DNA of 44,776 nt from assembly GCA_902384525.1 (NCBI GenBank), contig CABMCA010000067.1:1-44776 (forward strand). Direction: 5' to 3'. Under the pieces are notes generated by a model. That model saw only the letters and a list, made by a program, of their open reading frames with translations, searched no databases and was not told where the DNA came from. Below, one piece after another: positions 745 to 19,018 of this stretch. The stretch comes from an uncultured archaeon. Lineage in GTDB: Archaea; Halobacteriota; Methanosarcinia; Methanosarcinales; Methanoperedenaceae. The position numbers and the translations under genes were made by a program. Numbering within the stretch: position 1 is the first letter of the stretch; each line of letters starts with the position of its first letter.

Positions 745-2400
745 TTAAGGTTTAATATATTTTCCAGTCTGGATTATATCTCTTGGCATATTTGAAGAGA
801 AGAGCTGCAAGTTCCTGATCAACTTATTTTCGTCTTCAAAAATAGCATAGAATGATACAGTATCGCCAGCAGTAACAACGTTATTTTGTATTTTCCACTC
901 ACCGACCTTGGTCCAATTTTGAGGAATACCTCCATATTTGTCATACCATTGGTCATAAACTAACGCAATCTTTACTTCTTTTCGGTTAGCTAATTCACTT
1001 ATTGCTTTAGTATCATAACTTTCTCCCATTTTTGCCTTTGCTACCTCCAGACTTCCCAGTCCTTCTAAATCTAATAGTCTGACCTCGCCAAAATAATCAA
1101 TTGCACCAATGTCATTAGCGGCTATATATTCTCCAATATAATAATTTTTGAGAAACAAACCCATCTGATACTGCTGCTCATAAATATTATTTGTTGCTTG
1201 CGGAGTAATCACCAGAGATGTAAGTCCTCGTTGTGCGAGTGGAAGACTAATTATAAGGATAACTAATATAATCAAAAATTTCTTTAGTGGTAAACTCTTA
1301 TTAAAAATGACGGATAACCTTTCAGGAAAATATTCATGCAAATTTATACCAACTACAACTATTCCAAGAGCTATGAGATATGCTTCATATCTGAAAAACC
1401 AACCAGTACGAGCAAAAATCATATGTAAGAGAGTTGTCACGATGAAAATAACAAGCATAATTGTAGTCTCTTTCCAAAAGTAGTTATGCTTTTTATATTG
1501 AATAATCAAAAGAACTAACGCCACAGCAACGAGTACATAAATATGAGGAGTTTTTATAATTTGCCCAACAGAATGGATTAAAAACCTGGTTATACCAGGA
1601 TACAATAATACATTACTTTTAAGGAGAACAGAATTTGGCAAGAAATACCACCCTTTTGAAATTGAGATAATTCCGTATATCGCTAACGGCATGATCCCAA
1701 TTATTAATAAAAAAAAAGAATATAACCATTCTTTTTTAATAATCAATAGAATACTCACAACAAGAATCAGAAACAGTCCTTCATATCGTGTGGCAGTTAT
1801 GAAAAATGCTAATATTAGAAGAATTGAATATTCTAAAAAAGCAGGTTTTTTCTTTGAAAGTATAATAACTGAAGAATAAACAAAGAAAATTGTAAGAAGT
1901 ATCTGCAGTGTATGTTCCATGCCGCTGAATATAAGTGCAGGCAAAGGTGTGAAAAATATTACTGATAATAAGATTATGAAGCTCCAAAAAGAATTCAACT
2001 TATATCTTCTGAGAATAATAAATATCAAAACAATGGTAAGCGTTGCAAATATTATATTCAATATGAACGGAGTAACTTCATTCACCCCCGTTATGAAGTA
2101 AATAACTGATATTAATAATGTATAAAGTAATGATGAGGAAGATGAGGAAAAACCATATTTAGTAACGCCCCAAACTCCATTTTGGGCAAGGTTTTTTGCA
2201 ATAGCCATATGAATATAAGCATCATCAATAGCATAAACGATATGTCCTTGATTTTTTTTGACAGATATGACCAAAAGTATTGCTACAATTATCCAGAGTA
2301 TAACTATCGATGTTATTAAAGACAATTGTTGCTTAATAAAATTCCCAATACTTGGAACATTCTTCAGGGAGGATATCCATCTTTTATCTAATATTTGCAC
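745..2400 (-). CDS. GT-C-like multi-pass membrane glycosyltransferase (DDAY motif)
   Basis: 551 residues with roughly a dozen membrane helices and a soluble C-terminal part (about residues 420-551). Just after the first helix it carries AIDDAYIHMAIAKNLAQNG (DD at 59-60), the acidic first-loop motif of GT-C enzymes such as the AftB and protein-mannosyltransferase families, which use polyprenyl-phosphate sugars on the outer face of the membrane. It is the last gene of the 18-gene minus-strand glycan run, 30 bases after its neighbour. The start is a GTG, chosen because AAGGTGAT lies five bases upstream. Donor and acceptor cannot be read from the sequence. Confidence 0.75.
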   Translation of the reverse strand: MQILDKRWISSLKNVPSIGNFIKQQLSLITSIVILWIIVAILLVISVKKNQGHIVYAIDDAYIHMAIAKNLAQNGVWGVTKYGFSSSSSSLLYTLLISVIYFITGVNEVTPFILNIIFATLTIVLIFIILRRYKLNSFWSFIILLSVIFFTPLPALIFSGMEHTLQILLTIFFVYSSVIILSKKKPAFLEYSILLILAFFITATRYEGLFLILVVSILLIIKKEWLYSFFLLIIGIMPLAIYGIISISKGWYFLPNSVLLKSNVLLYPGITRFLIHSVGQIIKTPHIYVLVAVALVLLIIQYKKHNYFWKETTIMLVIFIVTTLLHMIFARTGWFFRYEAYLIALGIVVVGINLHEYFPERLSVIFNKSLPLKKFLIILVILIISLPLAQRGLTSLVITPQATNNIYEQQYQMGLFLKNYYIGEYIAANDIGAIDYFGEVRLLDLEGLGSLEVAKAKMGESYDTKAISELANRKEVKIALVYDQWYDKYGGIPQNWTKVGEWKIQNNVVTAGDTVSFYAIFEDENKLIRNLQLFSSNMPRDIIQTGKYIKP

Positions 2401-2405
2401 TAAGC

Positions 2406-2413
2406 ATCACCTT
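2406..2413 (-). promoter_or_regulatory. Strong ribosome binding site setting a GTG start
   Basis: On the minus strand the sequence reads AAGGTGAT, a near-perfect anti-16S complement, five bases before the GTG at 2398-2400. It supports the GTG as the true start of the DDAY-motif GT-C protein. Confidence 0.65.
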
Positions 2414-2430
2414 TTTAACTCCTTGGTCTG

Positions 2431-3942
2431 TTAAATATTTTTTAAATACCAAATAGTATTTTTTCCATTATCATATAGCTTACCCGACTTACCATCAAAC
2501 GTAATTGAAAATCCGGTAGCATATCTTTCATCTCTTATATAATAATATATATCAAACCTATTAAAAATGACCTCCTTCCAACTACCATAATAACCCTGAT
2601 CTCTCAATTTATACCAGAGCCAGTCAGTCATTCCTTTTGGATTTTCAATCTGATAAGGACCTTCGGAATAGAATAAGGTCGAAAATGGTGATCGATTCGA
2701 AATATTAAAACTCCATAAGTTCCCCTGAATAAGAGTCGCAATATTATTTTCAGTAATCAAATTAGCCCCTGAATATGCGAGCATTCTCCTGCTTACAAGA
2801 AATTCGTCGGTCATCATCATTTCTGTAGTGTATGATTTCGTCCAGAGTGCAGCATTAACGATACTGTCTTCTGCATAAAATGGAGTGGCTGAATTCTCAT
2901 AATCTGCATTGGTTCTACCAAACTGATAGAATTCAGCAACACCAACAGAAAGTGAAAAAAATAGTATTATTAATAGAATAATATGTTTCTTGGTTCTTGA
3001 GATCTTAATCAGATTCATAATACCATAACTTGCCAATAATGCTTCAAAAGGTATCATGAAATATTTGGAATACAATACAACTGACATTATGGGTGTTAAA
3101 AATAATAAAGCCAGAATTAAAAAATTTTCTTCGAAAGTTCTATTTTTCTTAAACAAAAGATAGACGAATCCTCCAATTGTGAAAACGATCAAGACCCCTG
3201 TATATCTTACAAAAGAGAGAATTAGATTAAATAATGAGAAATGTTTCACGGATAACTGAATTAAAAAAATTATGAATAATATTAATAATATAATCCCTCC
3301 ATACAAATTTGATGACTTTACTTGAACCTTGCTAATTACCAGAGCAATACAAAAACCTAAAATAATTGGACCTGTTAGATAAACCAGATTGTGCGTTGCT
3401 AAAAGTAATATCCAAAAAACAACAGCCATTATACCATATTTTATAGAAAAGCGAGATTTGATTAAAAAATAGATGAATAAAGGCAGCAAAACTAAGAACA
3501 TTCCTCTTCCTGAGGCACTCCATGTCGTAAAAACCAATATTCCTGGTGCAGTTGAATAAATAAATGCTGTAATGAATTTAAAAAATTTATCGTCTTTTAT
3601 TGCTCCTGCCATAAAATATGCAGTAAATGAACTGAAAACCCCTAACAACAGCAGAGCAACCCAGATTGCATTCTCCATTACTAGAGACAGGACCTGTGAT
3701 ATTCCAGATAAATAAAAAGGCAGAGCACTTGCTTCAGAATGTGGATATAAACCTATCATTGAAAGGGGATTGAGCCACCATTTTGCATGACCATAAGTTG
3801 ATAATGAATCTGCAATAAAGTGCAGCAGGAATGAATCGTGACCAATCTCATGTGGCGTTATTGGAATTCGTATAATCACATTAAGCAGGATCAAGCAGAT
3901 CCACAGAAAAGTCCAGGTACGTTTTGAAAAATTGGTTTCCAT
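2431..3942 (-). CDS. GT-C-like multi-pass membrane protein
   Basis: 503 residues with many membrane helices and a C-terminal extracytoplasmic part (about 350-503). After the first helix it has PHEIGHDSFLLHFIADSL (H35-D36), resembling the acidic loop-1 motif of GT-C glycosyltransferases or oligosaccharyltransferase-like proteins, followed by WWLNPLSMIGLYPHS. No WWDYG signature of AglB/STT3 is present, so it is not the N-glycan oligosaccharyltransferase. It starts four bases after the GT2 gene and has AGGA upstream of its ATG. A role in lipid-linked sugar transfer or polymerisation is inferred from architecture and context. Confidence 0.65.
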   Translation of the reverse strand: METNFSKRTWTFLWICLILLNVIIRIPITPHEIGHDSFLLHFIADSLSTYGHAKWWLNPLSMIGLYPHSEASALPFYLSGISQVLSLVMENAIWVALLLLGVFSSFTAYFMAGAIKDDKFFKFITAFIYSTAPGILVFTTWSASGRGMFLVLLPLFIYFLIKSRFSIKYGIMAVVFWILLLATHNLVYLTGPIILGFCIALVISKVQVKSSNLYGGIILLILFIIFLIQLSVKHFSLFNLILSFVRYTGVLIVFTIGGFVYLLFKKNRTFEENFLILALLFLTPIMSVVLYSKYFMIPFEALLASYGIMNLIKISRTKKHIILLIILFFSLSVGVAEFYQFGRTNADYENSATPFYAEDSIVNAALWTKSYTTEMMMTDEFLVSRRMLAYSGANLITENNIATLIQGNLWSFNISNRSPFSTLFYSEGPYQIENPKGMTDWLWYKLRDQGYYGSWKEVIFNRFDIYYYIRDERYATGFSITFDGKSGKLYDNGKNTIWYLKNI

Positions 3943-3946
3943 TTAA

Positions 3947-4840
3947 TCAGGTCCTTCCATACTTATTATTAAAATAATATTGGAAAATTTCGTTTATTAT
4001 ATGCCAATAATAATATTTTCTGATTTGCTCATCATTTGTTCTTTCTTTTCTTCTTATCCAACTGTTGAAGTACCCAAATAAAAATTCAATCCCCAAATAA
4101 TGTGGTCTTTTATGAGAGTATATTATTCCCTTTCCAACCGCAACAAATGGATTAAGATACAAGTAATATGCAGTTGTGCCTTTTAAATAATACCCCCTTT
4201 TTAATCCTTCCACACTACCGGTTTCTCTTGAATGTATTATTTTTATTTCATTGAATCTTTTTACTTTCCACCCATTTAGTATTGCTTTTACTCTCATTAC
4301 GCTCTCCCACGCATGAGAAATTGGAACTCCACCCAATACTTCAATGCACTCCTTCCTGCACATCATTTCACCACCCGAAATAGTGTCATGTCGAAATTTA
4401 GTATCCTGTAATTTACCCCTAACGTTTTGATACTGGATTTCACCGCTTGCAATGCCTAAATGCTCATCTTTTTGAAATTCAATAATAAGTTTTTCAAAAA
4501 ATTCTTTATCTTGTATAACCATATCAGCATCAAGAAAAACAATATAATCGTAGATGATGTTGTGTTCTTTACAAAAATTTTTCGCAAAATCAAAACATGT
4601 TTTAATCACTTCAGATATATGAATTGTTAAATCTCTAGGCCCTACTTTTAGGCAAACGCTTTCCACCCATTTATATTTGTTTTTCGTATCCTGGATTATC
4701 TCTGGTGTTTTATCTGTGCTTCCATCATCAACAAAAGTCCATAATTCTGGAATAATCGACTGCTTGGCTAAGGACTCTATGAGGTTCGGTAAATCCTTTT
4801 CTTCATTTTTGCATGGGGTGATAATTATATATCTATTCAT
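3947..4840 (-). CDS. Family 2 glycosyltransferase (GT-A fold)
   Basis: Soluble glycosyltransferase of about 297 residues. The N-terminal IIITPCKNEEKDLPNLIESL, the nucleotide-binding VDDGSTD and the metal-binding DAD in FLDADMV are the standard GT2 signature. It would transfer a sugar from a nucleotide-sugar donor on the cytoplasmic side. Three codons upstream another ATG (4849) is possible; 4840 is favoured because MNRYIIITPCKN is where family members usually begin. It overlaps the upstream DUF354 gene, which implies translational coupling. The sugar is unknown. Confidence 0.9.
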   Translation of the reverse strand: MNRYIIITPCKNEEKDLPNLIESLAKQSIIPELWTFVDDGSTDKTPEIIQDTKNKYKWVESVCLKVGPRDLTIHISEVIKTCFDFAKNFCKEHNIIYDYIVFLDADMVIQDKEFFEKLIIEFQKDEHLGIASGEIQYQNVRGKLQDTKFRHDTISGGEMMCRKECIEVLGGVPISHAWESVMRVKAILNGWKVKRFNEIKIIHSRETGSVEGLKRGYYLKGTTAYYLYLNPFVAVGKGIIYSHKRPHYLGIEFLFGYFNSWIRRKERTNDEQIRKYYYWHIINEIFQYYFNNKYGRT

Positions 4841-5891
4841 GATAACCATTCAATAATTTGGAATTATTTATATTTTCAATATAATCAATTAAAAATTTAT
4901 TTACATCGATAGTATCTTCGAATAACTTTTGCCTCTTCAACTTCCAATTTTGTTTTGCCCTATCATTTTGTATTAAATCCAGAGCTCTTTCCAGAGCCAT
5001 AACAGTTTCAGAGTACGAATACATCAATCCGTACTTATTTTCCAATTCCTCAAAGTTGCCTAAAATACCTGCAAGTGAAGATAAATAAATTGATGGTGTT
5101 CCCAATATTCCAGCCTCTGCAGCCATCGTGCCCCCTTCTCCCAAATACAACGATGCATAATATAAAATATCATGCATTTTTACTGGCGAAATTTCTAATT
5201 CATATTTTTTAAATTCATTTGGAAGTGTGCTTTCTGATGTGATAAATACCCTCGCATATTTTTTAAGTTCTTCTATTCCTTTTTTTATCTCCTCCAAGTT
5301 CATACCTCTTTGTCCAACATCATGATGTGCATGCCATGAAACGAACCTGATAATAACATATTTATCATTTCTGCTGATACCCAGATCATCTAAAACTAAA
5401 ATATTTGGCTCAAAATTACCAGGATGCAGATAAGCAAGTTCGAAGAATCCTTTAAAACGCACATGTTTTTTGCCCAAATCATCTTTATAGCAATTAGGTG
5501 TTATTATTGCATCTGCAAAAGGTAACACAAATCTATGAAGTTTTTTGGCAATTTCTGTGTCTTCACAAACGATAAATGGTTTATTTAGAAGGGCGCTGAT
5601 ATGTGCAAAATGAGGTTCAGCTTGTCCTATGAAAATATCCGGTTTGAATTCGTTAGCAATCTTTAGAGTACGATATTCCCATATCGGCAAATTTAAAATT
5701 TTCATTAGCATTGTGGGCTGATTTTTTCCTATTAGTTCATATGGAATATTAAATTGCTCCAAAAGATATGTCGTAATTTCTTTTTCTACAGCGATTACTT
5801 TAAATTCATGGCCTTTAGCTTCCAATAACTTAATAATATTCTTGAACATGTATACATGCTTTGGGTGCGAGATTCCAACTAATATTTTCAT
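4833..5891 (-). CDS. DUF354 family glycosyltransferase-like protein
   Basis: 352 residues of the DUF354 family, which has the GT-B fold of glycosyltransferases and UDP-GlcNAc epimerase-like proteins. The start MKILVGISHPKHVYMFKNII, the FIGQAEPHFAHISALLNKPF segment and the glycine-rich LYLGEGGTMAAEAGILGTPS near the C-terminus (the donor-binding region in GT-B proteins) support this. Archaeal and bacterial DUF354 genes usually sit in surface polysaccharide clusters, as here. GAGG lies seven bases before the ATG. Activity as a transferase versus an epimerase cannot be decided. Confidence 0.85.
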   Translation of the reverse strand: MKILVGISHPKHVYMFKNIIKLLEAKGHEFKVIAVEKEITTYLLEQFNIPYELIGKNQPTMLMKILNLPIWEYRTLKIANEFKPDIFIGQAEPHFAHISALLNKPFIVCEDTEIAKKLHRFVLPFADAIITPNCYKDDLGKKHVRFKGFFELAYLHPGNFEPNILVLDDLGISRNDKYVIIRFVSWHAHHDVGQRGMNLEEIKKGIEELKKYARVFITSESTLPNEFKKYELEISPVKMHDILYYASLYLGEGGTMAAEAGILGTPSIYLSSLAGILGNFEELENKYGLMYSYSETVMALERALDLIQNDRAKQNWKLKRQKLFEDTIDVNKFLIDYIENINNSKLLNGYHE

Positions 5892-6589
5892 TAAGTTGCC
5901 TCTGATGGTAACAAGATGGTATCTCTTAAATAGTTTTTAATTTCATTATTAACATCTTCAAATGGCTTCGAGGAATCAAACATAATGTAACCAGATTTTC
6001 TGGCTAGTTTCAAATATTCTTCTCTTTCACATGAAAGTTGTTCCGCAGTGTATAATATATGATCTTTTCTATCATTTATCGTTTTCAGAGATCTTTGTAT
6101 TGGAATGTCGAGTACTATACTGATATCAGTTCTTATGTTCTGCCAGATAGGACGAAGCCATTCTGCATGATAATCTAAAGCCTTGGATTTGATAAGTGAT
6201 GCGCAGATGAACCTATCGAAAATAATCACATCATAGTTTTCGTATTTTCGCTTGCTTAAATAATACATCAAAATATTATCGAGCATGGCGATCAATGGCT
6301 TGACTATAGCTGGAAAAGAATATCGTGGTGGAGCGTAGGGTCTCAAAGACTCTTTCTTCCTACCTATGTCCACATATTTTCCAAATCGTTTTTTTATCTT
6401 ATCTGCAAATATCCAATTATGAAATGGAATAATCATGCATTTAACACCGTTTTCATTAAGCCATGAATTAATTTTTTCTGCGTTTGTTGATTTTCCTGCG
6501 CCATCTATGCCAAGAAATGCAATTGTGATACATTTCTTAGATATTTTCTTTTTAATGCCTTTTGGTTTTTGATTTCTTATAAGCATCAT
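5891..6589 (-). CDS. Thymidylate-kinase-like P-loop kinase
   Basis: 232 residues with a Walker A GIDGAGKST at 27-35 and the DR[YF] motif of thymidylate kinases as DRF at 125-127, plus an Arg-rich lid region near 155-180 (RSLKTINDRKDH). It has a basic 20-residue N-terminal extension before the P-loop. The overlap with DUF354 by one base and the two-base gap to the HPr-kinase-like gene tie it to the glycan operon. Tmk homologues in polysaccharide loci are thought to phosphorylate something other than dTMP, perhaps a sugar or lipid intermediate. That is inference; a true dTMP kinase elsewhere in the genome would support it. Confidence 0.75.
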   Translation of the reverse strand: MMLIRNQKPKGIKKKISKKCITIAFLGIDGAGKSTNAEKINSWLNENGVKCMIIPFHNWIFADKIKKRFGKYVDIGRKKESLRPYAPPRYSFPAIVKPLIAMLDNILMYYLSKRKYENYDVIIFDRFICASLIKSKALDYHAEWLRPIWQNIRTDISIVLDIPIQRSLKTINDRKDHILYTAEQLSCEREEYLKLARKSGYIMFDSSKPFEDVNNEIKNYLRDTILLPSEAT

Positions 6590-6591: not shown

Positions 6592-7668
6592 TTAGTAGTC
6601 CACTGATTTTACATAATTCTGAATATCATTGAATACATTGTTATCATACTCTTTAGGCAGTTCTATTTCATAAATCGGTATTTCTTCTAACATTACTTTT
6701 AAATTTTTTTTCATATTTTCCCAATGTGTAGATATTAAACTATTTGGGAAAATAAATGAATAAACAAGCATGTACTCAAGAAATCGATTCATAGAAATAC
6801 CCATAAGATTCGGCATATAAGCATGATTCATTTCTATTTTATTATTTATGACTAGCCTGTCAATAGCTTTTTGCAAGTCAGTTTCTCTTATTGTTAATCG
6901 TTCTCTCTCAGATTGCCTGCTAATAAAAAACAATGCGCATAATTTAGACATCTCAGCAACATTCACATCAGTACGATCTAAGTGGTAATAATTGTTGAAG
7001 TTATATTTTATTAAATTAATCTTATCTAAAATATTTCTTTTTTTTTCTGTTTGCAAAAATTTGCACCTGTATCCAAAAGAAACCAAACCAACAGGATAAC
7101 TCAAAACATTCTTACCATGAAGTATTACTCTTTCATCTCCCATGAAATCAAATCCTGCTTTTCGAGTGAAATCCATAGCAAGCGTGGTCTTGAAGGCTCC
7201 CCCCATGCCAGATAACAGAAATGCTTTTTTATCTTTACTGAGCCCCGCTGAATGTAATAAAAAATATCCTTTTTTTGACAATTTATAATCAATCAATGGA
7301 CTAATAAAAAGATTATGCGCTCCCAAAATAGGTAGCAGCCCAAGAATTCCTGGCACCTTAATATCGAAATTCATTACTGTATCCCCAGATTCAAACCCTA
7401 AAATTTCAAGTTCCCATTTTGTCTTATCTATCGAATCCTTGCAGTAAAAATAATTTTCTTTAATGTAATATTTATTATCTAATATATAACAATCTTCATT
7501 TGAAGGTTTAAATTTACCAATGTTAAGTATAATATCCGGTTTATCGATACTATCTACTTCGAAAAATCGATGTTCAACATTTAGATAATCGATCAAGTTA
7601 AATTTCTTATTTAAAATAATTTGAAATTTTAATACATTATGGATATTATAACTTAGAATTTGCTTCAT
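6592..7668 (-). CDS. HPr-kinase-like P-loop protein
   Basis: About 358 residues. Near the middle lies LLHSAGLSKDKKAFLLSGMG followed by GAFKTTLAMDF, the arrangement of the HprK-related kinase fold (PEP-carboxykinase-like P-loop), and then FDFMGDERVIL, matching the acidic position after the P-loop. The Walker A is unusual: Phe replaces the Gly that normally precedes Lys (G-M-G-G-A-F-K-T-T). The family also occurs in peptide-modification and exopolysaccharide loci, with unknown substrates. The ATG at 7668 is preferred over a TTG nine bases upstream because AAGGA precedes it. It overlaps the ATP-grasp gene. Confidence 0.65.
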   Translation of the reverse strand: MKQILSYNIHNVLKFQIILNKKFNLIDYLNVEHRFFEVDSIDKPDIILNIGKFKPSNEDCYILDNKYYIKENYFYCKDSIDKTKWELEILGFESGDTVMNFDIKVPGILGLLPILGAHNLFISPLIDYKLSKKGYFLLHSAGLSKDKKAFLLSGMGGAFKTTLAMDFTRKAGFDFMGDERVILHGKNVLSYPVGLVSFGYRCKFLQTEKKRNILDKINLIKYNFNNYYHLDRTDVNVAEMSKLCALFFISRQSERERLTIRETDLQKAIDRLVINNKIEMNHAYMPNLMGISMNRFLEYMLVYSFIFPNSLISTHWENMKKNLKVMLEEIPIYEIELPKEYDNNVFNDIQNYVKSVDY

Positions 7669-7673
7669 TATAT

Positions 7674-8861
7674 TCAATCCTTTCTGTTTATTTTACCTAT
7701 ACCATAATGTAAATCGTTATTCTTTATTAATTCTTTTATACCTTTATATAAAAAAGTGAACCCAGGAAGTAAATCATCATAAGCTACTTCATCACACTCA
7801 GTTCTGTTAATAAATTCCTTAAGTACGAAAGCAGGTTTTTTTGTTTTCCTAAAAATCGCAAACAAAGCCCTCATATCACTCATTAAAAGCCTTGTTTTTA
7901 CTCCTAACTTATAATTAAGAACACGATCTACATCCCCTTCCATAGCCATTTTATATAAAAGATAGGGAAAATCAACACCAGATGCTACAGCCTGGTTTAC
8001 AGAGCCCCAGAATCTGGGATTTACTTCTAAAAGAACAGGTTTCTTTGTCCGTTTGTCCATCTTAAACTCTACCATTGCTAAACCATTCCAATCAACATGT
8101 TCTAATAATTTCTTTGCGATTTTTTCCATTTCTGGAGACCTTACACTTTCTCTTAGCGTGCTGCCTCCTCCTGAAACAGGGTATTCTCTCAAACGCTTGT
8201 GCGTAAATAGTGCTCTTAGATCCCCTTGATTAAACAAAACAGAAACACCATACCCATCACCCGGAATATATTCTTGAACGAGTGGATAATAGGAAGCATC
8301 TTTAATAGAAAATTTTTGTATTACTTGCTTATAACCTGAGATAAACTCATCCTCTGAATGTGCATATTGAACCCCTATACTGCTTGTAGAATCTTTTATC
8401 TTAATTACTACTGGATATTCAATTACTTTTGCAATATTTCTAATTTCATTAGTATTTTTAATAACGTAAGTTTTAGGTATTGGTAAATTTATTTCTTCTG
8501 CAACTTTCATCAATTCTTCTTTGTTATGCAATCTTATCATTTTAGAATAATCGGCAAATGGAACTTTTGTATGCGGTTCGAGTTTATATTTATACTTGGA
8601 AACCAATAGTGTTTCCACACTATTTATTGGCATGACCACGTCAATCTTACTGTTTATAACATATTTTTCTAATGTGTTTATAAATCCAAATGGTGATTTT
8701 AATGGAGAAGGATATAAAAAATGATTTATTGAATATCTAGAAAAAAATGCAGCAGAAAGTCTTTCACTACCAGTAGTTACGACCTCAATTTTCTTTCTGC
8801 CCAGGCTTCTGGTGACAACTAATGCTTTAGCACTGTCTGCATTTGTTATTATAACACTCAT
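7674..8861 (-). CDS. ATP-grasp carboxylate-amine/thiol ligase
   Basis: 395 residues. A Rossmann-like N-terminal domain (SVIITNADSAKALVVTRSLG) is followed by the ATP-grasp core: VVIKIKDSTSSIGVQYA for the nucleotide loop, VQEYIPGDGYGVSVLF, and LLEVNPRFWGSV with the metal-binding Glu and Asn. Such enzymes join a carboxylate to an amine through an acyl-phosphate. In this cluster it could attach an amino acid to a sugar acid or peptide. It has GAGGTAAA before its ATG, one base after the PHP gene. The substrate is unknown. Confidence 0.85.
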   Translation of the reverse strand: MSVIITNADSAKALVVTRSLGRKKIEVVTTGSERLSAAFFSRYSINHFLYPSPLKSPFGFINTLEKYVINSKIDVVMPINSVETLLVSKYKYKLEPHTKVPFADYSKMIRLHNKEELMKVAEEINLPIPKTYVIKNTNEIRNIAKVIEYPVVIKIKDSTSSIGVQYAHSEDEFISGYKQVIQKFSIKDASYYPLVQEYIPGDGYGVSVLFNQGDLRALFTHKRLREYPVSGGGSTLRESVRSPEMEKIAKKLLEHVDWNGLAMVEFKMDKRTKKPVLLEVNPRFWGSVNQAVASGVDFPYLLYKMAMEGDVDRVLNYKLGVKTRLLMSDMRALFAIFRKTKKPAFVLKEFINRTECDEVAYDDLLPGFTFLYKGIKELIKNNDLHYGIGKINRKD

Positions 8862-9537: not shown

Positions 9538-9581
9538 AGTCATCTCGAAATGTGTTAGATATATGATTAATTAATTCATTT

Positions 9582-11204: not shown

Positions 11205-12224
11205 TTATGGAACTTCCTTGCGAAGGCTTTTACCTATCACGTTTGTCAATAGTAAAGGTAATCTTTTCCATATTTTTGTAAATATTTTTCTTTTTTGATT
11301 ATTTGAAGTATAATCAGGTATTTTAATACCTCTATTAAGATAGTACTGGTAATCAAGTTCTTGCGTTTCAGCACCCCATCTTTCTTTAAATTCCATATTA
11401 GGCGAACCTTGCTGGCTGCGTCCGAAATCATAATAACGATAGTTATTAAGACAACCATATTCTATCGCCGTCCAGATTCCTCCGTCTGTTGGATAAAAAT
11501 TTCTATATTCTTCAAGCGTTGAACTCCACGAGTTAATCATAGTATTTTTATAAAAAATATAAAATGCAGCATATAGCGGTTTTTTATCTAGACTTACTAT
11601 TTGAGTCTTAGAGGAGTCTGGAAACTCATGCAGAATATTTGTAAAAAATATTTTACTGTGCATAGGACTACCTAAATCTCGCATGTTTATCGCAAATATC
11701 TTATAGAATTCTTCGATTTCATTACTGAATTGTATATTTAAATTTCTTTTTTGGGATTTAACTATATTCTTCCTTTTATTTCTGGTGAGCCTTTCCTTCC
11801 ACACAACATCTGGGTTAGGATCCAATTTTAAAATTGATGTTGTATACAATGAAGTGGTTAATAAATTCGATGAATTTCCTTTGCTTCTTAATTCTAAATA
11901 TTCAACATCAAGTTCTTTGGCGAGTTTAAAAGCGTGGTCTATTAACGCTCTAACAGCAGCAACATTTCCAACTGCACCACCATAAGGAGCAAACGGCACT
12001 GATATAAGTTTTCTGCCAAAAACCAAATTTTTGAATAAAAACATCGGCAGCACCCCAATTATTTCATCGTCTTCTTTTGCCAGAAAATAATAAGATTTAT
12101 GTCCATAACTCTTCTCAATCACGCGCTTCCATCCAAGTTGATGGTAAAACGTAGACTGAGGATGGTTAAATACATATTCGTCCCATTTTTTTTCGTCTAT
12201 ACTTTTAAGTTCACAGATTTCCAT
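11205..12224 (-). CDS. FemAB-like GNAT-fold acyl/aminoacyl transferase
   Basis: 339 residues. The N-terminal WDEYVFNHPQSTFYHQLGWK, VPFAPYGG (about residue 80) and the C-terminal YDFGRSQQGSPNMEFKERWG are characteristic of the FemAB-like family found with exosortase/PEP-CTERM exopolysaccharide clusters in bacteria. Classic FemAB proteins add amino acids from aminoacyl-tRNA to peptidoglycan precursors; archaea lack murein, so the acceptor must differ. GGAGTGAT precedes the ATG. It starts four bases after the deacetylase gene. Its presence in a glycan operon points to aminoacylation of a surface polymer (inference). Confidence 0.85.
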   Translation of the reverse strand: MEICELKSIDEKKWDEYVFNHPQSTFYHQLGWKRVIEKSYGHKSYYFLAKEDDEIIGVLPMFLFKNLVFGRKLISVPFAPYGGAVGNVAAVRALIDHAFKLAKELDVEYLELRSKGNSSNLLTTSLYTTSILKLDPNPDVVWKERLTRNKRKNIVKSQKRNLNIQFSNEIEEFYKIFAINMRDLGSPMHSKIFFTNILHEFPDSSKTQIVSLDKKPLYAAFYIFYKNTMINSWSSTLEEYRNFYPTDGGIWTAIEYGCLNNYRYYDFGRSQQGSPNMEFKERWGAETQELDYQYYLNRGIKIPDYTSNNQKRKIFTKIWKRLPLLLTNVIGKSLRKEVP

Positions 12225-12228: not shown

Positions 12229-13131
12229 TCACTCCATCAATTTCCTATAATCTTGCATTGTGACAAACTCAGCCCCTGCTTTCTTTGAACGCTTAATGAC
12301 TTCACTAATAAGCCTGACAGCTCCAGTACCAAGGTTTTTGACTTTTAAACGGTTCCTTATTACATCTGCAAATATGTATTCGACTACGTTATTCGCTCTT
12401 CTTGCAAAGGCAGCTCCAGTTTTTGCATCGAGACACTCATTTGGATGAAATAAAAATACGATAGGTTTTTCTGTTCTCTGAGATTCTGCAAACAAAAACT
12501 TTTCAAGAATTTTTACTATCAAAGGACTTATTCGCATTGTTGTTCCAATATATGAAAAAAAATATGCAGAGATTGGAATTTCAAGAATATTTGAAGCTCC
12601 TTTCTTCATAACCGAATCATAAGAAGGATAATAAGGATTTCTTGGAGCAACTAGCCATTTGAGTTTCCTCTTTGAACCAAATGTAAAAGGGCCATCAAAT
12701 CTCTGGGAAGCTACAGAACTATCTGTATTAAATCCTGTTTGTTCAAGGGCTCGTATCGTAAATTCGTTTATGCGCAGAGCTGGAGCCCTGAAGTCGTAGA
12801 TTCTACCCGCTATTTTTTCTATGGTATGTTTTGCTTTTTTCAATTCTGCTATTTGTTCATATAGATTCATTGAGTCAAAAGTTCTATTATGCGAATGGGA
12901 AAAACCATGACACCCTATATCATGTCCATAATCTAAAACTAATTCCAGAGTTTCCGGAACGGACTCTATTATTTCCCCTGTGAAGTAAAAAGTACATTTT
13001 ATGTCGTGTTTTGCATAGACATCCAGCAAGCGGGGAAGCCCGACTTTATATACCTCCCTGGCAGTATTATAATCTAGTTTGTTTAACGGGATCGAGAAAC
13101 TCTCAACATCATTGGTCATGAGGAAATACAT
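12229..13131 (-). CDS. Polysaccharide deacetylase (NodB-like, PEP-CTERM-locus type)
   Basis: 300 residues with a NodB homology domain: TNDVESF (D8) as the first metal motif, then HDIKCTFYFTGEI, and GHDIGCHGFSHSH with the metal-binding HGFSH (75-79). IYDFRAPALRI corresponds to the catalytic RxP motif. The arrangement is that of the deacetylases in bacterial exosortase-linked EPS loci. It would remove acetyl groups from N-acetylated sugars, probably on the polymer or its lipid-linked unit. It is followed four bases later by the FemAB-like gene, the same pairing as in those bacterial loci. Confidence 0.88.
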   Translation of the reverse strand: MYFLMTNDVESFSIPLNKLDYNTAREVYKVGLPRLLDVYAKHDIKCTFYFTGEIIESVPETLELVLDYGHDIGCHGFSHSHNRTFDSMNLYEQIAELKKAKHTIEKIAGRIYDFRAPALRINEFTIRALEQTGFNTDSSVASQRFDGPFTFGSKRKLKWLVAPRNPYYPSYDSVMKKGASNILEIPISAYFFSYIGTTMRISPLIVKILEKFLFAESQRTEKPIVFLFHPNECLDAKTGAAFARRANNVVEYIFADVIRNRLKVKNLGTGAVRLISEVIKRSKKAGAEFVTMQDYRKLME

Positions 13132-13163: not shown

Positions 13164-14291
13164 TTAATAAGGATTCCAATCCTTCACCTCTGTATATTCC
13201 GGAAGATCCCCATAAGGATATTTATTGAAAAGTTCTCCCCATTCAGTTTTCATGAATTGCTCAATATTCGATTTACCTTTTGTCGGATACCAGAGAGAAT
13301 CATGGTAAAATTCCGATGCAAAAATAAAAGCTTTAAATATCGGTGAATAAAACAAAAGATTATGTAAAGATTTGAGTTTCGCCGTTTTCTTTCTTAAGAT
13401 CTGGTCCCATTTGATGATCGGACTTTTCTTAACCTCGAAACCAAAATTTTGTTTTTCAAAATCTTTCCTGTCCATTCCGACTATCTCGATCTGGTCAACA
13501 TCTCCCATCCCCAGCCCCCTTTCATGCGCAAGTTTGATATAATCGATTTTAAGGGGATCAAATCCCATGATTTTTGAAGCCACTGCATCTATTGCGACCT
13601 GGTCATTGCTTGCTAATATGGTATTTCCAATATATGGCTCCATGGTCCTGGGACCTGCTCCATTTCCGCATACACAGCCGTCCATGACTGCAAACATTCC
13701 TTTATGGACTTCCTTTTGTATAGCCAACAGGTCTACAAGGATCTCATGGATCTTAAGATGTGCATGATGCCTGTATTTTGGGATCAATCCCCCAAATGCG
13801 TTTTTCATTGCACCTGTTGTTGTAGTATGCCCGTGAGTCTTTACCGTTGGAAGATGGAGAATATTGCTTCCTTTAAAGATCTTTGGAATTAAGATCTCTT
13901 CGAAAATATCATGCATCGCCAGCATATCAGAAGCTGGTTTGAATGGCACCCACTCAACGTCCGTAAGAGGCTTAAAATCAATTCCGTGTTTTTTAAGGGC
14001 AGGAAGCCATTTGTTACCATAAGCGCCCTTCCATGGATGAGTGACAACGGTTTGATTCTCTACCGAGAGAATATCGTTATACCCATCCTGTTTCATTGTT
14101 TTTAATATTCCATCAAGCTGCCACGGTTGTGTAGAGCATGCCGGATAGAACAAACTCCATGAAAGATTGAGCTTGACTACGGTCTTATTCTCTTTTGGCA
14201 GGATTTTTTCGTATTCTGCCAGATGCATAAGATCATTATAATCTTCAATTACACTTTTTGGGGATGTTGTTAATACTGCGACTTTTGACAT
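13164..14291 (-). CDS. DUF362 domain protein
   Basis: 375 residues of the DUF362 family: VVKLNLSWS near the start, the central LPTVKTHGHTTTTGAMKNAF followed by GGLIP, and the late GNTILASNDQVAIDAVASKI segment are all typical. Members are cytoplasmic proteins of poorly known biochemistry, often with ferredoxin-like partners; no CxxCxxC cluster is present here. AAGGTGA precedes the ATG. A gene for this family inside a polysaccharide operon has no obvious explanation. Confidence 0.85.
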   Translation of the reverse strand: MSKVAVLTTSPKSVIEDYNDLMHLAEYEKILPKENKTVVKLNLSWSLFYPACSTQPWQLDGILKTMKQDGYNDILSVENQTVVTHPWKGAYGNKWLPALKKHGIDFKPLTDVEWVPFKPASDMLAMHDIFEEILIPKIFKGSNILHLPTVKTHGHTTTTGAMKNAFGGLIPKYRHHAHLKIHEILVDLLAIQKEVHKGMFAVMDGCVCGNGAGPRTMEPYIGNTILASNDQVAIDAVASKIMGFDPLKIDYIKLAHERGLGMGDVDQIEIVGMDRKDFEKQNFGFEVKKSPIIKWDQILRKKTAKLKSLHNLLFYSPIFKAFIFASEFYHDSLWYPTKGKSNIEQFMKTEWGELFNKYPYGDLPEYTEVKDWNPY

Positions 14292-14294: not shown

Positions 14295-15257
14295 TCACCT
14301 TATATCATTTGCTTTAATTATTTCCCGGTTTCCTGATCTCTTGATTTTTTTATTGAACATAAAATAAACTGATAACCCTATGATCGTTCCATACCACAGC
14401 GTTACAGATCTAACAATGATCGTTATTGCTACAGATACCGCGGGTTCTGTGCCAAAATATTGCAGCATGCCTGAGATAGTCCCCTCAGCAATACCCAGCC
14501 CCCCTGGAACCATGCTCACTGCTCCAGCCAGGGATGCGAAGCTGAAAATGAATGTTGATAATGTTATGCTTATGGATTTCCCGAATCCAAGAATAGCAAA
14601 ATACATCACAAGACACTCAAAAAACCATGCAAATGTACTCAACAACGACATTGCAAAAAGGCCCCTGGGTTTCATTAATCTCTCAAATGTCGCATGCATC
14701 GTCTTAATATTCTCAGCATATTTTCCCATTCTTTTTTCCAGAAGCATGATAATCTTCCCGGAAATAGTTTTAGACCGAACTGCAATAAGAAATCCTGAAA
14801 ATAATAAAAGCAACAATATAATGATGTATACCCCGTCCATATAATATATAATACCCAGCATAGAAAGAAAAATTAAACCCATGACATCTGTTATCCGGTC
14901 CATAATTACCACTGGTACGGTTTTATTTAATTTTTCTCCATTAATATCCTTTATTAGCCACCCTTTCCAGACCTCACCCACTTTTCCAGGTGTCATTACC
15001 ATGGAAAAACCACTCAAAAAAACAAACAGGTTATCCCGGATGTTTAACCGGATATCAACACTTTTCAAGAATAAATCCCATTTAATAAATCGGATAGCAT
15101 AACTAATGGTTGTAAAAACAAGCAATAATATGAAAAAATCCCAGCGGAATTTATCCATTATCGATACAAGGCTTCCGAAATCTGCGTATATTCCCATTAA
15201 TATATATACAGCAACTGCAAAAAGGATGATTATATAGAGGAATTTGTTTTTCGCCAT
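14295..15257 (-). CDS. Lysylphosphatidylglycerol synthase-like / UPF0104 flippase-like membrane protein
   Basis: 320 residues with about eight membrane helices and the family signatures FLSGFSMVMTPGKVGEVWKG (about 84-103) and SMVPGGLGIAEG (about 246-257), both diagnostic of the LPG_synthase_TM family. Archaeal relatives such as AglD act in glycan assembly at the membrane, and the bacterial domain flips lipids. It could flip a lipid-linked sugar for the GT-C enzymes of the operon. It starts 28 bases inside the end of the PHP copy 2 gene. Confidence 0.85.
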   Translation of the reverse strand: MAKNKFLYIIILFAVAVYILMGIYADFGSLVSIMDKFRWDFFILLLVFTTISYAIRFIKWDLFLKSVDIRLNIRDNLFVFLSGFSMVMTPGKVGEVWKGWLIKDINGEKLNKTVPVVIMDRITDVMGLIFLSMLGIIYYMDGVYIIILLLLLFSGFLIAVRSKTISGKIIMLLEKRMGKYAENIKTMHATFERLMKPRGLFAMSLLSTFAWFFECLVMYFAILGFGKSISITLSTFIFSFASLAGAVSMVPGGLGIAEGTISGMLQYFGTEPAVSVAITIIVRSVTLWYGTIIGLSVYFMFNKKIKRSGNREIIKANDIR

Positions 15258-15874
15258 AATTTTAATCCCTTAGTTAATCCATGATTTATAAATGATGATC
15301 TTTTTCCGAAAATTTCAATCTCTTTTTTCAGAAAGGCTTCTCTGATATCCTCTATTTCTGTAATTACTCCCGCATTTGCGATTTCATTTATAAAATGAGC
15401 ATCGCTTCCTGCAGTTATCGCCATATTGTGTCTTTTTGCGAATTCCTTAGCATTTTTATTATACTTTTGAAATAAGCACCTTGAATTAAATCCTTCTATA
15501 CAGTCAATGAATTTAATATCTTCTTCTGCGGGTTGAAACGAAGAATGACGCATTTCATCAAATGGGTGAGGTATTATGATGATACCATTTTGATCCCTGA
15601 TATCATTGATAACATCCTGAAACATTCCGGACCTGATTTCTTCTGAAAGAAAAAGTCCTATTACTTCACCTTTTTCTGTCATGATCTCTGAACCTATTAT
15701 TACTTTTAGACTATCTATTTCATATTTTTTTGCTTCTATACCCCCTTTTATCGTATTGTGATCCGTTATTGCTATTCCATCCAATCCCCTTTTTATTGCA
15801 ATCTTCACGATTTCCTTTACATCCATAATACCATCTGAGGAATATTTAGAATGGATATGCATGTCGTATTTCAT
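15230..15874 (-). CDS. PHP-domain phosphoesterase (copy 2)
   Basis: 214 residues with the PHP motifs MHIHSKYSSDG, ITDHNT, IGSEIMT, IPHPFDE and GSDAHF. It aligns with the first PHP gene of the operon (8863-9537) for most of its length, including VIIGSE, GEVIGLFL and IRDQ, then diverges near the C-terminus. Two PHP genes in one run suggests two different phosphoester substrates. It is six bases downstream of the HPPG-motif membrane protein and overlaps the flippase-like gene. Confidence 0.85.
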   Translation of the reverse strand: MKYDMHIHSKYSSDGIMDVKEIVKIAIKRGLDGIAITDHNTIKGGIEAKKYEIDSLKVIIGSEIMTEKGEVIGLFLSEEIRSGMFQDVINDIRDQNGIIIIPHPFDEMRHSSFQPAEEDIKFIDCIEGFNSRCLFQKYNKNAKEFAKRHNMAITAGSDAHFINEIANAGVITEIEDIREAFLKKEIEIFGKRSSFINHGLTKGLKLWRKTNSSI

Positions 15875-15880
15875 AAATAA

Positions 15881-17512
15881 TCACGAATAATAAAATCCAA
15901 ATGTTTGCATCAATATTGTTTGAACAAATACCAGATACATTAATATGTTTCTCTCTTTTAAAGAAATGTTAGATCTTTGTAAATAGGAAGCAACAGGGAA
16001 TATTAAAAACGGATATATGAACAAAGCGGCTCGAGCTGTCTCAGCTGTTCGAAATGCCCCGGCAGAAAGCATTGCCAAAAGCGAGAATATGGCAAGCCAG
16101 GTAATTGTCAGGAGATTTGATCTAATTCTTTCCTGTGTACGAAGACCCAGCACCATTAACAGGCTTAAGAAAGGTCCAAAAAATAGGATGATTTCAAAGA
16201 TCCCTTCTATCCGGGTGAATAAATAGGAAATAGGGTTTGAAATAAGCAGGAAACCGAATCGATTTTCTAATACTGATGCTATCATAAATGAATTAACATA
16301 ATTATAACTGAAAAATGTGCTGATCAAAACATAGATAATTCCCATGCCCATAATTATATATCCTGATCTTAAAAAGTCCTTTCTTATAAGCAACTCATAT
16401 CCAATCATGATGGGAAGAATAAAGACAAACGTAAATGTTAAAAATGAGGCTAAGAAAAGAAAAAATAAGGAACCAATGATATTGAAAAACGATCTTCGCT
16501 TTAAATAGAAATATAATGATCCAAGTAAAAAAGTACATATTAAGGCATCGATCGTAGCCACATAGAATACCTGAATACTTGGAATTAGAATGAACAGAAA
16601 GGTCACATATCCGGATAGATCTTCTTTAAATTCGATCGATAATATTTTATATAAGAAAAATGTGGAAAGGGATACAGAGACTATGCCGATAGCGATTGAT
16701 ATCAGAGCCGGGTTTCCAAGAATTTTTAATAACAGATATATTATTAGAATTCCCCCCGGGGGATGCGTTCTGGAATGCACAAGAAGGAATGGTTGCATCC
16801 TTTCAAAATTATTTAGAAAATAAACCGGATCAGTGATTTTTATTGCATCATCATAGTATTGGTTACCAATAATGGAACTGCCCGTGATGGGAACAACTAA
16901 TCCTGTCTCCCAACCCTTACTCTGGATAAGGGTCTTTCCTTCAAAGCCCTGTACTTGAAGCAAGTTAGTACCCAGGACTAAAAGGATACCGAATATCACG
17001 ATAAATTCAAGTCTGAATTGGGTTTTTGACAGGTATTTGAGAAAAAAATAGAATATCAAAAAAATAGCTAATGCCGCAATCAAATGCTCCCAATTTGGTA
17101 TTTGAGGTATGAAATTGCTGATCGGCCAGAATTGTGTGCTGCTAAAATTAACGTATCTATGAGCCGTCTTTACAATGATATGCATAGATATAATAACAAT
17201 AATAAAAGAAGATGCTATTATGAATAGATTAATATAATTGAAAATTCCGTTTTTACTTGAGCATACTATTCGCGAAAAAAATTCTGGCCACTTTGCCAGT
17301 ATAATTCCGAAGAGGATGATAAAAACCCCAAGGATAAAGATTGCAACCCTCAGGGATTGTAAAATCTGGATGAATGAATTTTTTAATTCTATTCCAATTA
17401 GAATATAATTTTCAACAAAATATGGAGTAAGAAGAAAAGCAAGTAAAATAAAATACAAACCTATTAAGCAAAATGCGAAAGACTGCCACTTAGACTTAAT
17501 ATAATTTATCAA
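15881..17512 (-). CDS. GT-C/GT39-like membrane glycosyltransferase (HPPG motif)
   Basis: 543 residues with about twelve membrane helices. An extracytoplasmic segment carries DD at 221-222 and, at 250-253, HPPG in SRTHPPGGILIIYLL, the motif seen in many GT39-type polyprenyl-phosphate-sugar mannosyltransferases and their relatives. The start is a TTG, chosen because GGAGGGGG lies immediately upstream. It is 16 bases after the UbiA-like gene, which may make its polyprenyl-linked donor (inference). Confidence 0.75.
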   Translation of the reverse strand: MINYIKSKWQSFAFCLIGLYFILLAFLLTPYFVENYILIGIELKNSFIQILQSLRVAIFILGVFIILFGIILAKWPEFFSRIVCSSKNGIFNYINLFIIASSFIIVIISMHIIVKTAHRYVNFSSTQFWPISNFIPQIPNWEHLIAALAIFLIFYFFLKYLSKTQFRLEFIVIFGILLVLGTNLLQVQGFEGKTLIQSKGWETGLVVPITGSSIIGNQYYDDAIKITDPVYFLNNFERMQPFLLVHSRTHPPGGILIIYLLLKILGNPALISIAIGIVSVSLSTFFLYKILSIEFKEDLSGYVTFLFILIPSIQVFYVATIDALICTFLLGSLYFYLKRRSFFNIIGSLFFLFLASFLTFTFVFILPIMIGYELLIRKDFLRSGYIIMGMGIIYVLISTFFSYNYVNSFMIASVLENRFGFLLISNPISYLFTRIEGIFEIILFFGPFLSLLMVLGLRTQERIRSNLLTITWLAIFSLLAMLSAGAFRTAETARAALFIYPFLIFPVASYLQRSNISLKERNILMYLVFVQTILMQTFGFYYS

Positions 17513-17515
17513 TTT

Positions 17516-17523
17516 CCCCCTCC
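17516..17523 (-). promoter_or_regulatory. Ribosome binding site setting a TTG start
   Basis: The minus strand reads GGAGGGGG three bases before the TTG at 17510-17512, supporting this rare start codon for the HPPG-motif membrane protein. Confidence 0.6.
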
Positions 17524-17528
17524 ACTTA

Positions 17529-18392
17529 TTAAAAACCCAATTTTCCTATATAAAGTACTCCAATGGCTGTCATTCCCCACAAAGCAATACATATCTGCAT
17601 ACCTCTGTCCTTGAATAACATTTCAGCTTCTCCCCCGAAATTACTTAAATGAACCAGTAGAAGATATCTAAAAATGCCATAAATTGCAAAAGGAATAGTA
17701 AGCATCATATAATAGTTGTTTGAAAGGAAAGTATACATTGAATAAGATATTATTAATGCAGCAGTTGCTATGCTCATCATTTGATCAAGAACCATTGTTG
17801 AATAATCAGAAAGAATCTTTCGGTGGTTTTTTCCCTCATCGCCAAGTAAGACCACTTCATGCCGTCTTTTTGCAATTGCTAAAAACAATGCCACCAAAAA
17901 TGTGCATACAATAAGCCATGGCGAAATGAAAACATTGATCGCTACTCCACCTGCGATTGCCCTGATAACAAAACCAATAGAAATGACCAGCATATCCACA
18001 ATGATGATATGTTTGAGTATCAAAGAATATAACAAAATCAGAAGGATATATGATATTGATAGTATCATAAATTGTATATTAATAAAATATGAGGCAATCA
18101 AACCTCCGATAATTAATATAATCGCAAATAGCAACGCATGATTCAATTTTAAAATTCCGGAAGCGATAGGTCTTTTCTGCTTTTTAGGATGATTCCTATC
18201 CTTTTCACGATCTATAATATCATTGATTATATATTCTCCCCCAGATATGAGACAGAATATGAAAAAAGCTGAAGTCGCTATTGACCACATTTGCAGATTT
18301 TGAATATTGAGCGAAAAAATTATACTAACAAATAGAACCAGATTTTTATACCACTGGTGTGGCCTCATTGTTATTAAAAGTTCTTTAAGCAT
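17529..18392 (-). CDS. UbiA-family polyprenyl-phosphate phosphoribosyltransferase-like enzyme
   Basis: 287 residues, eight or nine membrane helices. RPHQWYKNLVLF at the N-terminus, NDIIDREKDRNHPKKQKRPI (57-76) and, later, IVDMLVISIGFVIRAIAGG match the decaprenyl-phosphate phosphoribosyltransferase branch of UbiA rather than quinone or geranylgeranyl-glycerol-phosphate branches. Known members transfer 5-phosphoribose from PRPP to a polyprenyl phosphate, giving the ribose/arabinose donor precursor. In this operon it would supply a lipid-linked pentose for GT-C transferases (inference). It sits 14 bases after the PEY-CTERM gene. Confidence 0.85.
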   Translation of the reverse strand: MLKELLITMRPHQWYKNLVLFVSIIFSLNIQNLQMWSIATSAFFIFCLISGGEYIINDIIDREKDRNHPKKQKRPIASGILKLNHALLFAIILIIGGLIASYFINIQFMILSISYILLILLYSLILKHIIIVDMLVISIGFVIRAIAGGVAINVFISPWLIVCTFLVALFLAIAKRRHEVVLLGDEGKNHRKILSDYSTMVLDQMMSIATAALIISYSMYTFLSNNYYMMLTIPFAIYGIFRYLLLVHLSNFGGEAEMLFKDRGMQICIALWGMTAIGVLYIGKLGF

Positions 18393-18406
18393 ACGTTTTT
18401 TTCCAA

Positions 18407-19018
18407 TTATTTTGTTTTCTTCAGTATGAACAACAATGCTATTATAGTCATAATTGGCAGCGCTATTGTTGGATATTCAGGAATTTCGTCAGCTTTTGGA
18501 GTTGTTGGGGTTGATGTTGAGCTTATTGTTTGCTGAAATCCGGCGCTACTTCCAGAATTGACACGACTGCCACAGGGAGGTACTTCTATTTGTCTTTCTT
18601 CTCCATCACCTGAAACTAATTTTAATATAGAAGTTCCAGACAAAATAAGGAGATCTTTCCTCAGTATCTGTTCAGGCAACAAATCCAAGGTAATATTTAT
18701 GGGAAAAATGGAAATGGATTTATTTTTAGCCTCAAGATTAGTTAACCTGATATCAATAGTCTGTTCCTCATCGGTAAGATTAGTACAAGTCAGAATCTTT
18801 CCGGAAAAGTTTAATTGTATCGTATTTGGCCCTGAAGAGTTCTGGATTTCTGCAGGGGTTATCATAGGTGATGAAGTATTTTCAATATTCAGTTTTTCAA
18901 AAGAATTGTTTTCTAAAGTTACATCGGATACAGGAACAAATGCTTCTATTACAAATATACCTGCTAACACAAACAATGAAATTGATAACAATATTAGTCC
19001 AATGTTTTTATGAATCAT
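18407..19018 (-). CDS. PEF/PEY-CTERM surface protein (putative archaeosortase substrate)
   Basis: 203 residues, no enzymatic domain. It has an N-terminal membrane segment (IGLILLSISLFVLAGIFVIE), a Ser/Thr/Asn-rich middle with several Asn-X-Ser/Thr sequons, a Ser/Thr/Pro linker, and a C-terminal tail IPEYPTIALPIMTIIALLFI followed by LKKTK. That tail is the tripartite PEF-CTERM pattern (short motif, hydrophobic helix, basic end) with Tyr for Phe (PEY at 180-182). It is the first gene of the glycan run, so it may be co-transcribed with it, and could be sorted by the archaeosortase at 20771. Confidence 0.75.
   Translation of the reverse strand: MIHKNIGLILLSISLFVLAGIFVIEAFVPVSDVTLENNSFEKLNIENTSSPMITPAEIQNSSGPNTIQLNFSGKILTCTNLTDEEQTIDIRLTNLEAKNKSISIFPINITLDLLPEQILRKDLLILSGTSILKLVSGDGEERQIEVPPCGSRVNSGSSAGFQQTISSTSTPTTPKADEIPEYPTIALPIMTIIALLFILKKTK

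Follow-up and report, generated by a model that had tools for sequence, protein, structure and literature searches.

A candidate composite surface-glycan operon beside an archaeosortase C gene in an uncultured member of the Methanoperedenaceae

The locus described here is a run of glycan-related genes in an uncultured, probably methane-oxidising archaeon of the family Methanoperedenaceae (GenBank assembly GCA_902384525.1, 2.9 Mb in 130 contigs). The whole stretch analysed, hereafter the window, comprises positions 1 to 44,776 of contig CABMCA010000067.1, and, as the initial annotation had described, it carries 18 consecutive open reading frames (ORFs) on the minus strand, from position 19018 down to 745, with intergenic gaps of -28 to +38 bp. 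The GC content of these genes is 0.29-0.40, most being about 0.33, and that of most flanking genes is 0.34-0.44. Pfam recovered the families that had been named, including those held to be peculiar to the archaeal version (DUF362, two PHP proteins, a thymidylate-kinase-like or Tmk-like protein, and UbiA), together with LPG_synthase_TM, Polysacc_deac_1, FemAB, a methyltransferase, ATP-grasp, DUF354, and GT2. No RNA family or tRNA gene was found in the window by RNA-family and tRNA scans, and a sigma-70 promoter scan of the window, with a model unsuited to archaea, gave no more matches than shuffled sequences.

The first gene of the operon, PEF18 (18407..19018), encodes a small secreted protein that ends in IPEYPTIALPIMTIIALLFILKKTK and carries the PEF(PEY)-CTERM sorting tail IPEYPTIALP; its match to TIGR03024 clears the cut-off narrowly (24.2 versus 23 bits), so that the sorted protein placed at the head of the run is retained. 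Beyond it lie a conserved 120-aa protein (19185..19547, minus strand), homologues of which, at about 190 bits, adjoin HtpX-ArtC in other regions (L095, L096, L098, L100, and L101), an HtpX-like M48 metalloprotease (19871..20695, minus; PF01435), and archaeosortase C (ArtC; 20771..21616, plus), which scores 247.5 bits against TIGR03762 (cut-off 100) and has the GPCSGI, NLIR, and FVH motifs. ArtC lies 1.75 kb upstream of the operon, in agreement with the distance of about 1.7 kb first given, and stands outside it because it is encoded on the opposite strand. The PEF-CTERM/archaeosortase C system (TIGR03762 with TIGR03024) was reportedly described by Haft et al. in 2012, and the present locus is alike in combining an ArtC above cut-off with PEF-CTERM substrates. 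Only two PEF-CTERM proteins in the genome are above cut-off, and both are at this locus, flanking ArtC.

The genes on the far side of ArtC encode a DUF1616 membrane protein with repeated ectodomains (21609..24536, minus; PF07760, 197 bits), a VanZ-like protein (24548..25069, minus; PF04892, 50 bits), the second PEF-CTERM protein (25322..25840, plus; TIGR03024, 26.3 bits), a WecA-like polyprenyl-phosphate sugar-1-phosphate transferase predicted to initiate a glycan (25926..26891, plus; PF00953, 92 bits), a left-handed-helix (LbH) sugar acetyltransferase (26898..27551, plus; PF00132, 103 bits), and a DegT sugar aminotransferase (27558..28643, plus; PF01041, 449 bits). The limits 745-19018 are therefore right for the 18 genes and too narrow for the full unit, since related genes continue from HtpX to 28643. 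A second archaeosortase, ArtA (33778-34593; TIGR04125, 252 bits), is encoded 12 kb from ArtC and is followed, up to 35938, by apparent homologues of phosphatidylserine decarboxylase and synthase, the known lipid-anchoring neighbourhood of ArtA. At one ArtC locus of another genome (L098:6877-18493), PEF-CTERM-like tails are found on six ORFs, of which five lie between DUF1616 and WecA.

The second half of the operon, from 13131 downward, consists mainly of putative amino-sugar glycan genes. It begins with a NodB-type polysaccharide deacetylase (12229..13131; PF01522, 59 bits), a FemAB-like acyl/aminoacyl transferase of the XrtA-associated type (11205..12224), and an S-adenosylmethionine-dependent methyltransferase (10476..11183; PF08241, 65 bits), of which a 294-bit homologue in L052 sits among ATP-grasp, Deac2, and FemAB genes. 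The NodB deacetylase of the initial annotation is present and is not the sole one: the next gene, Deac2 (9582..10460), has no match in Pfam or the Protein Data Bank (PDB) and is assigned as a putative NodB-superfamily deacetylase because of its RHDVD and HEIGYH motifs. There follow a second PHP phosphoesterase with intact metal residues, PHP_b (8863..9543; PF02811, 47 bits), which adjoins ATP-grasp also in L037, L090, and L113; an ATP-grasp ligase (7674..8861; ATP-grasp models up to 56 bits); and an HprK-related P-loop kinase (6592..7677). The last was annotated as HPr-kinase-like, and this holds in that its matches to HprK-related models are weak (TIGR04355 and TIGR04352, 27 bits) while its AlphaFold2 model matches ATP-dependent phosphoenolpyruvate carboxykinase and HprK; sequence searches of FemAB and the HprK-like protein against the PDB gave no match. 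HprK-like matches are very rare, being found in 3 of 324 other genomes, and in another archaeon this kinase occurs as two tandem copies (L183:9335-11546). The run closes with the Tmk-like protein (5891..6589; PF02223, 49 bits), a DUF354 GT-B-like glycosyltransferase (4833..5891; PF04007, 79 bits), a GT2 glycosyltransferase (3947..4849; PF00535, 55 bits), and two GT-C-like membrane proteins, GTC_b (2431..3942; about nine transmembrane segments) and GTC_c (745..2400; about 12 segments, with a weak LA3751 glycosyltransferase match). Beyond this 3' end, a 74-aa ORF (454-678) that looks like the N-terminal region of a transposase may be a mobile-element remnant, and the start of a minus-strand secreted protein (2-226) is cut by the window end.

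How far these genes travel with ArtC was examined by comparing, with phmmer, the window proteins with the ORFs of 20 ArtC regions of the same order, 20 of the same phylum (mostly other orders), 17 of the genus, and 19 random 20-kb control regions from ArtC genomes. An ArtC gene that clears the cut-off is present in 53 of 393 Halobacteriota genomes and in 12 of the 31 from the same genus. Among the 20 same-order regions, HtpX and DUF1616 are each found in 18, PEF-CTERM and Deac2 in 17, DUF354 in 16, FemAB and GT2 in 14, and GTC_b in 11; the same eight genes have no match in the 19 controls. For Deac2, DUF354, FemAB, GT2, and GTC_b, the Fisher p values range from 1e-4 to 2e-8. Among the glycan genes, Deac2 accompanies ArtC most frequently, at a distance of 0.6-7.6 kb in the nine genomes in which both were located. 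By this co-occurrence test, which had been set in advance, ArtC and glycan genes are genuinely linked, above chance (11-17 of 20 regions for each gene versus 0 of 19). From these sequence comparisons, NodB, FemAB, Deac2, ATP-grasp, DUF354, GT2, and GTC_b are assigned to an ArtC-linked glycan set. In other families the linkage recurs with differing gene order, such as ArtC-Deac2-PHP_b-ATP-grasp-DUF354 in L090 and NodB-Deac2-FemAB-DegT-DUF354 in L075. Among named loci that share the WecA-LbH-DegT and NodB-FemAB genes, that of Ca. Methanoperedens sp. LC 1 (L136) is the closest, which makes Candidatus Methanoperedens the probable genus of the present archaeon. Within the genus, the stable part is HtpX-ArtC-DUF1616-VanZ-PEF-WecA (L095, L101-L103), to which LbH and DegT are added in L102 and L103; six of the nine canonical same-genus regions keep WecA next to ArtC. 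Beyond HtpX the content varies, with glycan genes in L095 and NodB or Deac2 in L096, L098, and L100. Elsewhere, tandem Deac2-like fragments, several with internal stops, resemble an array of broken copies (G441:C3:221417-227144 and G445:C36:7792-14140).

The same comparison does not uphold the 18 genes as one conserved ArtC-linked set. None of the 57 other ArtC regions has a match to UbiA, GTC_a, the flippase-like gene, or the HprK-like, Tmk-like, and GTC_c genes, and a single match each was obtained for PHP_a and DUF362; we thus rejected conservation of the whole operon with ArtC, given that most of the first half and three genes of the second are missing from those regions. The first half of the operon (UbiA, GT-C, PHP, flippase, and DUF362) is a separately travelling cassette. 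UbiA, PHP_a, the flippase, and DUF362 occur together in five other genomes (G273, G095, G022, G197, and G003), with a multi-transmembrane GT-C-like protein nearby, and several fragmentary genomes have part of the set; the cassette is found across Halobacteriota families. Of the 11 genomes with a close DUF362, nine also have UbiA, compared with 8 of the 314 others (p 1e-11).

The gene that follows PEF18 encodes a UbiA-family protein (17529..18392) that is identified, by its family model (NF008977, 250 bits versus 234), its match to the solved Rv3806c structure (PDB 8j8j, E 1.1e-36), and its residues at the site for phosphoribosyl pyrophosphate (PRPP), as a polyprenyl-phosphate 5-phosphoribosyltransferase of the decaprenylphosphoryl-5-phosphoribose synthase type. 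The Rv3806c residues K28, N73, D77, K87, R90, Y138, K143, and K208 are conserved, Q135 is replaced by I, and all 11 archaeal copies that were compared agree at seven PRPP-site residues. Next come GTC_a (15881..17512), a GT-C-like protein of about 12 transmembrane segments with no Pfam match, which is a candidate pentosyltransferase and has a 242-bit homologue beside UbiA-PHP-flippase in L187; PHP_a (15230..15874; PF02811, 50 bits), a candidate phosphoribosyl-lipid 5-phosphatase, in which the metal residues H6, H8, D38, H39, E63, H103, D158, and H160 are identical in the seven cassette homologues compared; a flippase-like membrane protein (14295..15257; LPG_synthase_TM/PF03706, 139 bits; TIGR00374, 111 bits), a candidate pentose-lipid flippase linked to UbiA in at least eight other genomes; and a DUF362 protein (13164..14291; PF04015, 94 bits).

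Because its first enzyme is a phosphoribosyltransferase, the cassette resembles the bacterial three-component pentofuranose systems, characterised in Citrobacter youngae O1/O2 (GT136), in which a UbiA-type synthase, a phosphatase, a flippase, and a GT-C enzyme work one after another, the identity of the sugar being determined by an epimerase (PMC11127046). The two are alike in that a UbiA-type synthase shares one cluster with the other components, including an optional epimerase; in the archaeal cassette, all but the synthase are candidates for their roles. The bacterial systems, however, use a HAD phosphatase, a MATE flippase, and a short-chain dehydrogenase/reductase (SDR) epimerase, whereas the archaeal cassette has a PHP protein, a TIGR00374-type protein, and DUF362; GTC_a also belongs to a different GT-C family from GT136. 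The mycobacterial decaprenylphosphoryl arabinose pathway (Rv3806c, Rv3807c, DprE1/E2, Emb) shares the first enzyme and the PRPP-site residues, but the operon has no DprE1/DprE2, and its phosphatase, flippase, and glycosyltransferase are of other families. An archaeal gene row in L189 (9572-14039) comes close to the bacterial arrangement: a UbiA phosphoribosyltransferase, a HAD phosphatase-GtrA-type flippase fusion, an SDR epimerase, and a GT-C protein stand in a row, the fusion replacing PHP and the TIGR00374-type protein. We found no description of an archaeal pentofuranose system, or of a glycan neighbourhood of ArtC, in the literature within our scope, which excluded subscription papers such as Haft et al. 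2012.

Three archaeal UbiA loci have no DUF362 (L186, L187, and L189), two of them being UbiA-PHP-flippase loci (L186 and L187), and in all three an SDR epimerase lies beside UbiA or one gene away. Such a swap of non-homologous parts supports the role assignments, with the caveat that three loci are few and that SDR genes are common near glycan genes. We therefore propose that DUF362, which occupies the place of the SDR epimerase, might epimerise a lipid-linked pentose. The fold points in the same direction. The AlphaFold2 model (pLDDT 82, pTM 0.86) has LarA-like proteins as its top six Foldseek matches, five of them so named (E 1.5e-4 to 1.2e-3, probability 1.00, query TM-score 0.35-0.41); one, 4nar, we take to be the LarA homologue of T. 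maritima. With a query TM-score of about 0.4, the match is a domain-level one. K151, H153, K163, and H178 are invariant, H153, K163, and H178 being so across 11 sequences that include distant DUF362 proteins; K163 is a candidate cofactor lysine and H178 a candidate nickel-binding histidine, and the spacing of this His-Lys-His series (10, 15) is close to that of LarA His174-Lys184-His200 (10, 16; sources including PMC11770544). DUF362 and LarA also share the Pfam clan CL0471 (PMC11770544).

Whether this likeness extends to the reaction is a matter on which we consider the chances about even: DUF362 may just as well use another cofactor, or serve in redox or maturation, the side chain then being plain ribofuranose. 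No activity is known for any DUF362 protein in the literature surveyed, and the protein falls in a sister family of Lar_N (PF09861), which has no match in DUF362 or anywhere else in the genome. In a profile alignment with LarA the residues align, but at a probability of 0.2% that is not significant, and a sequence search against the PDB gave chance-level matches only. Against a role other than epimerase stand the fold and clan, the conserved residues, the SDR swap, and a genome that has LarC and LarE above cut-off but no LarA; the support from LarC and LarE is only permissive, because genomes that lack the cassette also have both. LarA enzymes act on alpha-hydroxy acids, which their chemistry requires, and not on furanose hydroxyls, so that a nickel-pincer cofactor, a lipid-pentose substrate, and an epimerase activity are all candidates only. 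The combined claim, that archaea have their own extracytoplasmic pentofuranose pathway of UbiA, PHP phosphatase, TIGR00374-type flippase, and GT-C, and that its DUF362 is a nickel-pincer-type epimerase setting the stereochemistry of the lipid-pentose, we regard as unlikely to hold in full.

For the locus as a whole, the reading we favour, at somewhat better than an even chance, is a composite operon for surface-glycan synthesis with a dedicated ArtC sorting system as its neighbour, the operon's product being a pentose-decorated amino-sugar surface glycan made together with an ArtC substrate. We infer the substrates and the direction of the steps as follows. In the backbone arm, WecA, encoded across ArtC, would start a lipid-linked glycan, which DUF354, GT2, and the GT-C enzymes would lengthen; DegT and the acetyltransferase would provide amino sugars, NodB and Deac2 would strip acetyl groups, and FemAB, perhaps with the ATP-grasp ligase, may acylate or aminoacylate the freed amines, as its family suggests. 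In the side-chain arm, UbiA would move 5-phosphoribose from PRPP onto polyprenyl phosphate, PHP_a would take off the 5-phosphate, DUF362 might alter the stereochemistry of the pentose, the TIGR00374-type protein would flip the pentose lipid, and GTC_a would attach the pentofuranose outside the cell. The PEF-CTERM protein encoded by the first gene would be processed and anchored by ArtC and might also become attached to the glycan. A gene for a predicted ArtC target heads the operon, and we therefore propose that polymer and sorted protein are made together.

Besides the hydroxy-acid chemistry of LarA, several points weigh against this proposal. The full 18-gene set is in no other genome examined, and elsewhere the pentose cassette occurs without ArtC linkage. 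A FemAB-Deac2-DUF354-DegT module with no ArtC detected nearby is found at many archaeal loci (L053-L060, L065-L070). Many of the regions are related by descent, so that the enrichment counts lack phylogenetic independence, and the controls were drawn from fewer genomes than the ArtC regions. The substrates of FemAB, PHP, and ATP-grasp are guesses.

These ArtC-free modules suit the alternative that the product is a general surface glycan, N-linked or otherwise, and that ArtC is merely the operon's neighbour in a shared variable surface-gene region, with no functional coupling. So does the situation in the closest relatives, where, in two same-genus genomes, the operon's place directly beyond HtpX is taken by a giant surface protein that exceeds 2,700 aa and has SdrD_B, SpaA, Big_12, and DUF1349 domains (L102, 11738-19900; L103, 1-8172); the same ArtC cassette thus stands beside a giant surface protein instead of the operon (G422 and G425). 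On the other hand, the ArtC linkage recurs across families and gene orders, the core genes are absent from random regions, and a PEF-CTERM gene lies within the operon, 14 bp from UbiA. We consider this alternative possible but doubtful.

That two unrelated cassettes were stacked by chance, the UbiA-DUF362 set decorating a glycan other than the one the FemAB set builds, appears less probable still, and we judge it improbable. It would account for the finding that ArtC has no UbiA cassette nearby in the other 57 regions, and for the independent occurrence of that cassette across families, at DUF362 identities of 59-77%. Across the junction of the two halves, however, the genes run in one direction and no gap exceeds 38 bp, DUF362 and NodB being 32 bp apart. 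In the single-contig genome G095 (L171), no more than about 8 kb separates the UbiA cassette from Deac2 and DUF354, and about 3 kb separates it from an ArtC-like gene.

Acquisition of a bacterial XrtA/PEP-CTERM exopolysaccharide locus by an archaeon is very improbable: FemAB exceeds the XrtA-associated equivalog cut-off (TIGR03019, 287 versus 260 bits) and has relatives in Desulfobacterales bins, and the operon is lower in GC than most flanking genes, but the 18 genes include no XrtA, XrtA-specific sugar transferase, or chain-length protein, and the nearest homologues found are archaeal. The likeness to exosortase-linked loci seen in the initial annotation is confined, among XrtA-associated families, to FemAB; deacetylases and glycosyltransferases also lie near a sortase-like enzyme in both. 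The likeness fails for the NodB deacetylase, whose best NCBIfam match, to the XrtA deacetylase model TIGR03006, is far under cut-off (71 versus 276 bits), and for FemAB as a marker of ArtC loci, which we discarded in that most archaeal copies of the XrtA type lie elsewhere, similar genes being found in many glycan loci without ArtC (L053-L070). ArtC and PEF-CTERM here replace XrtA and PEP-CTERM; the window sortase is below the exosortase A cut-off (TIGR02602, 35.5 versus 105.6 bits), and no XrtA-type sugar transferase or chain-length protein was among the NCBIfam matches of the operon proteins scanned (all but the methyltransferase). Direct homology with XrtA loci, FemAB apart, was thus rejected. 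The initial annotation is partly supported: its observation was right and its link between ArtC and glycan genes is confirmed by comparison, whereas a single conserved exosortase-like operon is not.

The favoured reading, if true, would mean that exosortase-family sorting enzymes are coupled to the making of glycans in archaea just as they are in bacteria, through independently assembled gene sets. The most interesting part of the locus is the pentose cassette with DUF362, which can be tested beyond the present organism because it is present in other archaeal genomes, including the single-contig genomes G003 and G095. If its proposed role is correct, archaea would have a version of the bacterial pentofuranose pathway described in 2024 in which as many as three steps use other enzymes. 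DUF362 would then gain a concrete reaction, its first function, and a lipid-linked sugar would for the first time be known as the substrate of a nickel-pincer enzyme.

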